Shown here piece by piece: positions 46,606 to 48,701 of a stretch of DNA of 64,000 nucleotides. This DNA comes from Williamsia sp. DF01-3. Its GTDB lineage: Bacteria > Actinomycetota > Actinomycetes > Mycobacteriales > Mycobacteriaceae. Each line of letters opens with the position of its first letter. The stretch's first letter is position 1. A program made the translations under genes and the position numbers. The notes under the pieces were generated by a model that did no database searches, had not been told where the DNA came from, and saw nothing but the letters and a program-made list of their open reading frames with translations. The DNA lies in contig NZ_JALKFS010000005.1 in assembly GCF_023051145.1 (NCBI RefSeq), positions 4,853,733-4,917,732 of the forward strand, written 5' to 3'.

Positions 46606-47676
46606 ATGAGCAAGCAGCGCGAGGATGTACGGGACGACCCGGAGTCACCCGATCCGGAGGACCCGCGGAAGCCCGAATCCCCGACTCAGCTGACCAAGCA
46701 CTCCTTCATGTTCGTGCTCCGGAAGACGCTGCGGGAGTTCTCTCGCGATCAGTGCACCGACATCGCGGCAGCACTCACGTACTACTCGGTGCTGTCGCTG
46801 TTTCCCGCGCTGCTTGCCCTGGTGTCGCTGCTCGGCGTCTTCGGGCAAGGCCAGAAGACCACTGACGCGGTATTGAAGATGGTCGATGACCTCGGCCCCT
46901 CGTCCGCGGTCGACACCCTGCGTGGACCTGTCGAGCAACTCGTTGCCGCACCCAGCGCCGGGTTCGCCCTGGTGCTCGGTCTTGTTGGCGCCCTGTGGTC
47001 GGCGTCCGGTTACGTCGGGGCCTTCGGCCGGGCGATGAATCGGATGTACGAGATCGACGAAGGGCGTCCGATCTGGAAGTTGCGTCCGATCATGCTGCTC
47101 GTCACTCTGATCGCGCTCATCATGGCCGCAGCGGTTGCCTTCATGCTTGCTGTGAGCGGTCCGGTTGCGAAGTCCATCGGTGACGCCATCGGCCTGGGCG
47201 ACTCGGCTCTGACCATCTGGAACATCGCACGGTGGCCCGTGGTCTTGATCTTCGTGATCTTGGTTGTCGCGATCCTCTACTGGGCTACCCCGAACGTGAA
47301 ACAGCCGAAGTTCCGCTGGGTGAGCGCCGGTGCCATCCTCGCCATCGTCACCTGGATCGTCGCCTCGGCTCTGTTCGCTCTGTACGTCGCGAACTTCAGC
47401 AACTACAACAAGACCTATGGTGCCCTCGCCGGTGTCATCGTGTTCTTGCTGTGGCTCTGGCTCACCAACCTCGCATTGTTGTTCGGTGCCGAGTTCGACT
47501 CCGAGCTCGAGCGCGGTCGCCAGCTCCAGGCAGGGCTGCCGGCCGAAGAGCGCCTGCAACTCCCGCCGCGTGACACCAAGGCGTCGGACAAGAACGAAGC
47601 AACCGATCAGAAGTTCGTCGAGAGAGGTCGGGCCCTACGCGAATCCCAGGGCCAGACGATGACGCCTGACAAGTAG
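46606..47676 (+). CDS. YihY/BrkB family inner membrane protein
   Basis: The 356-residue protein has a disordered acidic N-terminus, then DIAAALTYYSVLSLFPALLA, the YihY/RNase BN-type signature, and about six membrane segments to residue 300, ending in a long charged cytoplasmic tail. The old assignment as ribonuclease BN is wrong for this family. Its role is unsettled, with proposals including lipid transport or envelope function. It forms an operon with the preceding 58-residue gene and is closed by a strong terminator. Confidence 0.9.
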   Translation: MSKQREDVRDDPESPDPEDPRKPESPTQLTKHSFMFVLRKTLREFSRDQCTDIAAALTYYSVLSLFPALLALVSLLGVFGQGQKTTDAVLKMVDDLGPSSAVDTLRGPVEQLVAAPSAGFALVLGLVGALWSASGYVGAFGRAMNRMYEIDEGRPIWKLRPIMLLVTLIALIMAAAVAFMLAVSGPVAKSIGDAIGLGDSALTIWNIARWPVVLIFVILVVAILYWATPNVKQPKFRWVSAGAILAIVTWIVASALFALYVANFSNYNKTYGALAGVIVFLLWLWLTNLALLFGAEFDSELERGRQLQAGLPAEERLQLPPRDTKASDKNEATDQKFVERGRALRESQGQTMTPDK

Positions 47677-47691
47677 GCAAGTTTTACCGAA

Positions 47692-47725
47692 GCCCCCGTA
47701 CTGGTTTGCCCGGTGCGGGGGTTTT
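47692..47725 (+). terminator. Intrinsic terminator after the YihY gene
   Basis: CCCCCG (47693-47698) pairs with CGGGGG (47716-47721), with weaker pairing inside, followed by TTTTGTT. Confidence 0.82.
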
Positions 47726-47730
47726 GTTGT

Positions 47731-48262
47731 GGGAGCGTGCAAACGCTCGCGCCGCAGGGCGAGCGGCGCCGGGGTCGCGGGGCGCTCGAAAAACCCGCAC
47801 ACGCTCGGACTACAGACCGAGCAACAACCAGGAAAGCTAGCGCGGGTTCGAGTCGGCTCGAGAAACCCGCAAACGCTCGCGCTGCAGGGCGAGCAACGAC
47901 TAGGTAAGCGAGCGCGGGTTCGGGTCGGCTCGAGAAACCCGCAAACGCTCGCGCCGCAGGGCGAGCGGGTGACTAGACGAGCGAGCGCGGGTTCCGGGGC
48001 GGCTCGGGAAACCCGCAAACGCTCGAGCTACAGACCGAGCAACGACTAGGTAAGCGAGCGCGGGTTCGAGTCGGCTCGAGAAACCCGCAAACGCTCGCGC
48101 TGCAGGGCGAGCAACGACTAGGTAAGCGAGCGTGGTCGCGGGTCAGCTCGGGACACCGGCAAACGCTCGGGCTACAGACCGAGCGTCGGCCGGTTAAGCG
48201 AGCGGAGGTTCAGTCCAGCTCGGAAAACCGGCGCACGCTCCTACTACAGAGCGAGCAACCCC
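47731..48262. repeat. 72-bp tandem repeat, about 7.5 copies, with internal dyads
   Basis: The element GCTCG(A/G)(G/A)AAACC(C/G)GCAA recurs at 47784, 47856, 47928, 48002, 48074, 48146 and 48218, that is every 72 bp with one 74-bp step. Copies at 47856 and 48074 are nearly identical; the outer copies have diverged. Each unit contains two dyads: GCTCGC...GCGAGC and GCGGGTT...AAACCCGC. Because 72 is a multiple of 3, both strands stay open as repetitive frames, but their arginine- or cysteine-rich composition argues against real proteins. No gene is called between the YihY terminator and 48273. Confidence 0.85.
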
Positions 48263-48272
48263 TTACCGACGA

Positions 48273-48701
48273 TCAGCGCAGAGCGACCAGATTCTCAACG
48301 GAGTTGCGGACGTCGGAGTCGATGACCTTCGCGACGATGTTACCGACAGGGCCGTTCAAGACGCTGCCACTGAGGGTGGCATCGAGGTCGAAGATCGAGC
48401 CGTTTCCTTCCGGCGTGACCTTCAGCGCGATCTCGATCCGCACACCGCCGCGACCTTTGCCCGACAACTCGAGCAGGCGGGGCTCGTCGTAGCGCGTCAC
48501 GGTCCAGTGGATCGTGTTGCGGAAACCCTTCACCTTGATCAGCGACGACACCTCGGTGCCCTCTTCGATCTGCGCGGGCAACGGACTCTTCCATCCCGCG
48601 AAGATCGTCATCCACTCGTCGAAGCGACTCAGATCCGACGCCATGTTCCAGGCCGCAGCAGGTTCGAGCTCCGACGTGACGGACACATTCACACCAGCCA
48701 T
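48273..48701 (-). CDS. SRPBCC family protein
   Basis: ATG 48701 gives 142 residues beginning MAGVNVSVTSELEPAAAWNM, with DLSRFDEWMTIFAGWKSPLP and the closing helix VIDSDVRNSVENLVAL of the type II START/polyketide-cyclase-like fold seen in Rv2185c-type mycobacterial proteins. It binds an unknown hydrophobic ligand. The coding region ends only about 10 bases before the 72-bp repeat array, so the array lies directly in its 3' untranslated region. Confidence 0.82.
   Translation of the reverse strand: MAGVNVSVTSELEPAAAWNMASDLSRFDEWMTIFAGWKSPLPAQIEEGTEVSSLIKVKGFRNTIHWTVTRYDEPRLLELSGKGRGGVRIEIALKVTPEGNGSIFDLDATLSGSVLNGPVGNIVAKVIDSDVRNSVENLVALR

Follow-up and report, generated by a model that had tools for sequence, protein, structure and literature searches.

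A 72-bp tandem array in Williamsia sp. DF01-3 is probably built from copies of a mobile palindromic element linked to a gene for an AbiEi-type, nuclease-like protein

What is the tandem repeat that fills a gap between two genes of Williamsia sp. DF01-3? The array lies in a stretch of 64,000 nucleotides (the window; positions 4853733-4917732 of contig C5 in the genome that we call G000), and the original prediction was of a 72-bp repeat with paired hairpins that could be a protein-binding array, a structured RNA or a chromosome-organisation site. The repeat is real: Tandem Repeats Finder reported 47784-48259 with a period of 72, 6.6 copies and a score of 526, and the units lie between convergent genes. 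On the left is a gene for a BrkB/YihY-family membrane protein (46606..47676, + strand; gene call and Pfam PF03631, E 6.6e-70) and on the right one for an SRPBCC-type protein (Polyketide_cyc2; 48273..48701, - strand; gene call and Pfam PF10604, E 4.4e-17). A terminator-like G+C-rich stem-loop followed by a T-rich run, seen in the sequence and with its stem in the fold, follows the left gene (47690..47727, + strand), and the array starts directly after it.

The array comprises seven units, the last of them partial, and a leading partial unit, in steps of 72 bp with one of 74. Units 1 to 7 are counted from their outer word. The leading partial unit (47739..47783) has the inner words GCTCG at 47745 and CGAGC at 47760. 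Unit 1 (47784..47855, 72 bp) has words at 47784, 47803 and 47818 and a degenerate fourth, whereas all four are intact in unit 2 (47856..47927, 72 bp). Unit 3 (47928..48001) is the one of 74 bp; units 4 (48002..48073), 5 (48074..48145) and 6 (48146..48217) are again of 72 bp, the last being the region with the window's top score against the sequence model R1 described below, and unit 7 (48218..48262) is partial and degenerate. The core pattern, allowing up to three mismatches, matched 13 times on the two strands of the window, always inside the array, compared with an expectation of 0.40 and a maximum of 4 in shuffled windows. The inner units had been described as nearly identical, which held in part: pairwise identities among six units ranged from 0.54 to 0.94, but the most divergent of the six was the 74-bp unit in mid-array, its value being understated since identities were computed ungapped.

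To define the unit, we picked 80 windows of 72 bp from those in register, each with a model match at its centre, and aligned them. They aligned without any gap, and this is the result, since their common length follows from how they were picked. The unit is a 58-bp dyad, centred at column 36.5, with four copies of the word GCTCG. The word occupies columns 8 and 27 and its complement columns 42 and 61; with variants counted (GCTCA, GCGCG and their complements), these four positions were filled in 64, 78, 73 and 66 of the 80 units, respectively. Word columns carried 1.62 bits of information compared with 0.81 elsewhere. The predicted GCTCGC/GCGAGC dyads are present as GCTCG/CGAGC, whereas the second predicted dyad, AAACCCGC/GCGGGTT, occurs in the window array but falls in columns that vary in the family consensus. 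The period is indeed near seven helical turns, as had been pointed out, but the regularity observed is one of word spacing: successive words are 19, 15 and 19 bp apart, then 19 bp to the first word of the next unit, and 19+15+19+19 = 72. This spacing may correspond to a lattice of equal protein contacts.

We then asked how far the element extends. A sequence-only model from 80 units (R1) gave 111 matches on both strands of G000, grouping into 16 places (from the best 150 of 7411 candidates), and arrays were also present in related species. The array is thus not found only here, the outcome that the original prediction had named as telling against it. G003, G004 and G006 among the other Williamsia genomes (G001-G008) have element sets comparable to that of G000. 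Neighbouring genes, predicted with a simple codon-usage script and compared among these four array genomes, defined 11 array groups with at least one common flanking gene in three or four of them; ten of the groups were present in all four, with differing copy numbers. Copy-number comparison had been proposed as a check, and at one locus four species have 2, 4, 13 and 4 units. In G002, G005 and G007, the element occurs singly, as a palindrome that is nearly perfect and has its words at the same positions (10, 5 and 6 places listed with a second model, R2). A pattern scan of named genomes matched Williamsia muralis BULT 1.1 and NBRC 105860. It also matched a record titled Kitasatospora arboriphila NRRL B-24581, whose genus is Williamsia and whose title looks wrong, and a Nonomuraea contig (L037) that we rejected as there was no model match there.

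Taken together, the arrays gave 161 spacings shorter than 100 bp, and 140 of these were exactly 72 bp; 17 larger spacings, mostly reflecting one missed unit, were excluded from the 161. Off-register spacings of 70, 71 and 73 bp also occur and, since in addition no single frame is consistent through the arrays, we rejected a coding repeat (72 = 24 codons). A CRISPR array, in which constant repeats would alternate with unrelated spacers, was rejected as well, because the whole 72-bp unit is related within the array and the words form a dyad. Another possibility is a neutral minisatellite, i.e. a chance palindrome expanded by slippage and kept by mutation alone. Units are more alike within one array (mean 0.70) than between arrays (0.58), as in concerted evolution. 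However, period and words are common to arrays that are only 0.58 alike, and among 124 neighbouring unit pairs, 109 were exactly 72 bp apart despite 2089 substitutions among them (the other 15 were off by 1-2 bp). Retention beside the same genes, and the link to a gene in seven of nine genomes described below, also argue against mutation alone, and we regard this explanation as very unlikely.

The hairpins raised the possibility of a structured RNA or an array of transcription terminators. Compared with shuffled sequences, the array folds much better (z -7.9 and -5.0), and of the 16 places in G000, seven are in convergent gaps (the others being five tandem and four divergent), both of which would suit this explanation. 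However, palindromes fold by construction, and base pairing across the dyad was lower than expected: dyad columns paired in 66.5% of cases, compared with 68.4 +/- 0.5% after shuffling, and 500 of 500 shuffles were at least as high. Compensatory base changes were absent from the arrays, in which paired columns vary independently or against pairing, and showed no clear excess over shuffles in 11 single-copy elements. In the window, Rfam gave six weak matches, every one below its gathering score. Since pairing across the dyad is below chance, we read the unit as a two-fold DNA site and not as an RNA stem, and an RNA or terminator function is hardly tenable. Among the three functions originally proposed, a protein-binding array fits best. 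In alignment A1, the dyad partners at columns 20/53, 32/41 and 33/40 avoid complementary bases (C facing C or G facing G, for example), as though a single good half-site sufficed or selection acted against perfect palindromes.

One gene is bordered by the element on either side in seven genomes (G000, G003, G004, G006, G002, G005 and G007). Its orthologues (54-100% identical) are flanked by elements in seven of nine Williamsia genomes, which are precisely those with at least five element places. G001 and G008 have no orthologue, their best matches being paralogues of ∼45% identity, and are also element-poor, with no and two R2 places listed, respectively; G001 has one weak R1 place (L089, E 2.9e-4) without the four-word form or the nuclease gene. 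The G000 copy is at C5:4602033-4602958 (L198), about 300 kb from the window array; in G003 the two flanking sides are on two contigs, C2 and C4. Since the original prediction was made from the sequence of the window alone, this tie to a nuclease-like gene in a genus-wide family was invisible to it. Scanned neighbours of the GCTCG-family gene included luciferase-like, MpaB/Lcp and ABC-transporter genes, and no AbiEii toxin gene was among them.

The Williamsia muralis protein (P0001) has 309 amino acids. PADLOC AbiEi models matched 17 of 17 aligned members (E up to 0.1) and Pfam AbiEi_4 matched 14 (E up to 1), with P0001 itself below the Pfam cut-off. In the C-terminal third, D233, E243, D245, K249, E268 and R271 are invariant in all 17, forming a D..ExD..K pattern that we take, by eye, to be PD-(D/E)XK-like. 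The protein thus looks like an AbiEi-type winged-helix N-terminus joined to a PD-(D/E)XK-like C-terminus, the latter assigned from conserved residues and not from a database match or fold. A sequence search of the PDB returned no relative, and a single-sequence structure model had a low mean pLDDT of 38. Y1 transposase models did not match the flanked gene's protein or 16 relatives, and the phage collection and IMG/VR contained no relatives. To our knowledge, AbiEi-type genes of this kind have no known role.

We consider it probable that the window array arose by tandem amplification of a mobile palindromic element, and that this element is paired with a dedicated gene located elsewhere in G000. 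Some features of the gene count against this reading. The G000 gene is frameshifted near codon 226, before the catalytic pattern, and its flanking arrays are kept; the G007 gene is split and contains a stop, and its elements remain. In G005, the gene is matched only up to residue 280, and its end overlaps with the downstream element. The assignment of the nuclease from residues, the missing PDB relative and the low pLDDT likewise weigh against it.

If the element belongs with the gene, paralogues might have elements of their own. The nuclease-like gene had 56 protein matches in Williamsia genomes, four to nine per genome. Loci were obtained for 30, of which four were the array-flanked gene itself and the other 26 were tested (L222 and L223 among these are GCTCG-family orthologues) for a word that recurs at 19 bp and is found in inverted form on the opposite side. 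Such a four-word palindrome was present within 450 bp of the gene at 25 of 26 loci, on both sides at 16, and 22 loci reached two stricter test levels; because orthologues are included, the 26 loci are not independent cases. The sole locus that failed, L230, is at a contig end. In a control of 240 kb of G000, three of 20 stretches were positive: the one with the window's own array, and two more that passed only at the loosest level. Scoring large palindromes without the word rule pointed in the same direction, the 240-kb control having two at a score of at least 16. In agreement, a count of repeated 6-mers at lags of 6-44, which did not assume a spacing of 19 bp, peaked at lag 19 in the 52 flanks: lag 19 totalled 312, from 25 of 26 loci, and the next lag 24, whereas 520 random segments gave a lag-19 total of 105.

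The palindromes, mostly of 60-90 bp, fall into about eight word families: GCTCG, CGCTCC, GCTCCA, CGCGCC, CCTCCG, CAAACC, GCACAC and GCAGGC. With words assigned by hand from the palindrome test, the nearest relative had the same word for 16 of 17 aligned proteins, and the remaining protein is the only member of its word. Protein identity was 0.60-0.98 between proteins with the same word (11 pairs) and averaged 0.47, reaching 0.74, between those with different words (125 pairs). CCTCCG-family palindromes (L235, L234, L240 and L242) are tandem beside the gene, often at ∼140-142 bp with a partial word between; lattice spacing is not supported for these copies.

Evidence bearing on mobility came from the paralogues. 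The L232 unit in G005, consisting of palindrome, gene and palindrome (about 1.2 kb), is missing from the orthologous place in G000, G001, G003, G004 and G006, where the flanks are 17 to 69 bp apart. This empty site covers one paralogue unit. Solo TGCACAC palindromes were found, among the matches listed, at 9, 12, 14 and 9 places in G002, G005, G007 and G008, respectively, and none was among those listed in the five genomes without the gene (33 candidates were scored per genome, and gene flanks were left out of the counts). All 20 of the 44 listed solos that were examined had the four-word form at some level, and 16 of the 20 lay between convergent genes by our own gene calls, a share that has no genome-wide baseline for convergent gaps. 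Against mobility, no target-site duplication was evident at the L232 site, where the flanks have diverged, and the window locus gave no clean empty site: in G001, G002, G005, G007 and G008, the BrkB and SRPBCC matches were either widely separated or located on separate contigs.

The places in G000 are unevenly distributed. With dnaA at 401 kb on C5, all 16 places found lie within 1.61 Mb of it (the maximum possible distance is 2.63 Mb), leaving 2.01-4.28 Mb empty; the GC skew, noisy over 20 sampled stretches, turns negative at about 2.8-3.1 Mb. Tests chosen post hoc on 15 places, with C5 taken as a circle, gave P = 0.0006 for all lying within this distance; for the largest gap P was 0.006, and for the mean distance it was 0.017. 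This position is what could be expected of a domesticated chromosome-organisation or regulatory array, in which a host nucleoid or partition-type protein would bind the 72-bp lattice and a mobile origin would be history. The arrays are also kept beside the same genes in four species, though the G000 nuclease gene is broken. However, the unit number at one locus varies freely (from 2 to 13, as above), single copies suffice in other Williamsia, and the paralogue groups have their own words, one of them traced to its own solos, which fits mobility. The chromosome-organisation site originally suggested accords with the position, but a protein-binding array fits better, and we judge domestication to be unlikely.

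We also searched outside the genus. Using the protein, a plasmid-collection search returned four loci, three from Tsukamurella and one from Collinsella aerofaciens. At the first of the Tsukamurella loci, the gene lies between four-word palindromes with the word CGCTGC. At another, L300, direct repeats of GGGGGA, mostly at 19 bp, flank the gene on either side, and the third locus has neither four-word palindromes nor direct word repeats. One of the Tsukamurella relatives is annotated as a 'type IV toxin-antitoxin system AbiEi family antitoxin domain-containing protein'. The GGGGGA arrays of L300, with spacings mostly of 19-21 bp, are long downstream and short upstream. Collinsella belongs to another class, and its gene has four palindromes on one side and two on the other, spaced by 80-81 bp; its record has at least 29 palindrome places, a 49-kb stretch around the gene contains one single copy and two more arrays, the latter with spacings of 78-83 bp, and another 49-kb stretch contains no copies. 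Judged by its sequence, Collinsella is an independent case of a gene with fixed-period palindrome arrays, without the 19-bp lag. Against the mobile-element reading, the four-word palindrome occurs in only one of three Tsukamurella relatives, and the Collinsella match covers residues 125-302 of the query only, with palindromes that lack the 19-bp lag. Model R1 gave one weak match each in 13 of 142 other genomes of the family; at the loci in 12 of these (L083-L088 and L090-L095), we found no four-word element and no nuclease gene, and rejected them. Model R2 gave one match in 397 genomes of the order under strict filters; the same search missed G000, weakly R2-positive elsewhere, and is therefore insensitive as evidence of absence. 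The matching locus (L177, in G189 of another family of the order) has a perfect four-word palindrome built from GCGCAC; this 3-kb locus lacks a nuclease gene within 1.5 kb of it.

A mechanism can be proposed that would connect what the sequences contain directly (the element, its four-word anatomy, the flanked gene, the co-occurrence of gene and element, the family-specific words, one empty site and dispersed solos), with binding, cutting and mobility being the steps that we infer. The winged helix would bind the words, predicting four protomers per palindrome and a string of protomers on an array. Support for this step comes by analogy, from the description of AbiEi of Streptococcus agalactiae as binding a pair of inverted repeats (PMC3985639). 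The nuclease-like domain may then nick or cut at or beside the element, repair from another copy would spread it, often to gaps between convergent genes, and unequal repair would make tandem arrays, whose period would be held at 72 bp by the 19-bp word-spacing requirement. More broadly, we lean towards an undescribed class of mobile system in Actinomycetota, in which proteins with AbiEi-type winged-helix and PD-(D/E)XK-like parts would each recognise their own word and spread the cognate palindrome as solos and fixed-period arrays.

The association ties genes of this AbiEi/nuclease-like kind to palindromes that resemble target sites, with a different word per group, and two questions become testable at once: the function of the protein and the origin of actinobacterial palindromic repeat arrays. 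If the domain cuts DNA, an enzyme not related to RAYT transposases would here be driving mobile palindromes, and the match between protein group and word, if true, would be a readable DNA-recognition code.

In the open-access PMC literature, we recognised no description of nuclease-linked palindromes of this kind, and several known systems share part of the pattern. MIRU-type minisatellites of mycobacteria, a related group, are intergenic tandem arrays with units of 40-100 bp; the Williamsia arrays are likewise intergenic and tandem, but their unit is a four-word dyad with a cognate gene. Empty sites in relatives, here for the L232 unit, are a likeness to MITEs and insertion sequences. With AbiE type IV toxin-antitoxin systems, the Williamsia protein has in common the AbiEi-type N-terminal part. 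In contrast, it has an extra nuclease-like C-terminus, the system has no AbiEii gene among the neighbours examined, and its sites lie on both sides of the gene and are dispersed over the genome. The closest resemblance is to REPtrons: REP/BIME sequences with RAYT are described as dispersed intergenic palindromes, also in clusters, with a dedicated gene flanked by them (PMC3733652), and the Williamsia element similarly has dispersed intergenic solos and a gene flanked on both sides. However, RAYT is a Y1 HUH tyrosine transposase, whereas the Williamsia gene encodes an AbiEi-type winged-helix, PD-(D/E)XK-like protein. REP sequences are 20-40 bp with a GTAG or CGTC tag, whereas the palindromes here are ∼58-90 bp, mostly with four words at 19 bp, and no such end tag was seen by eye on the GCTCG element. 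Together, these likenesses and differences suggest that the Williamsia system is best read as a REPtron-like mobile-palindrome system with an unrelated enzyme.
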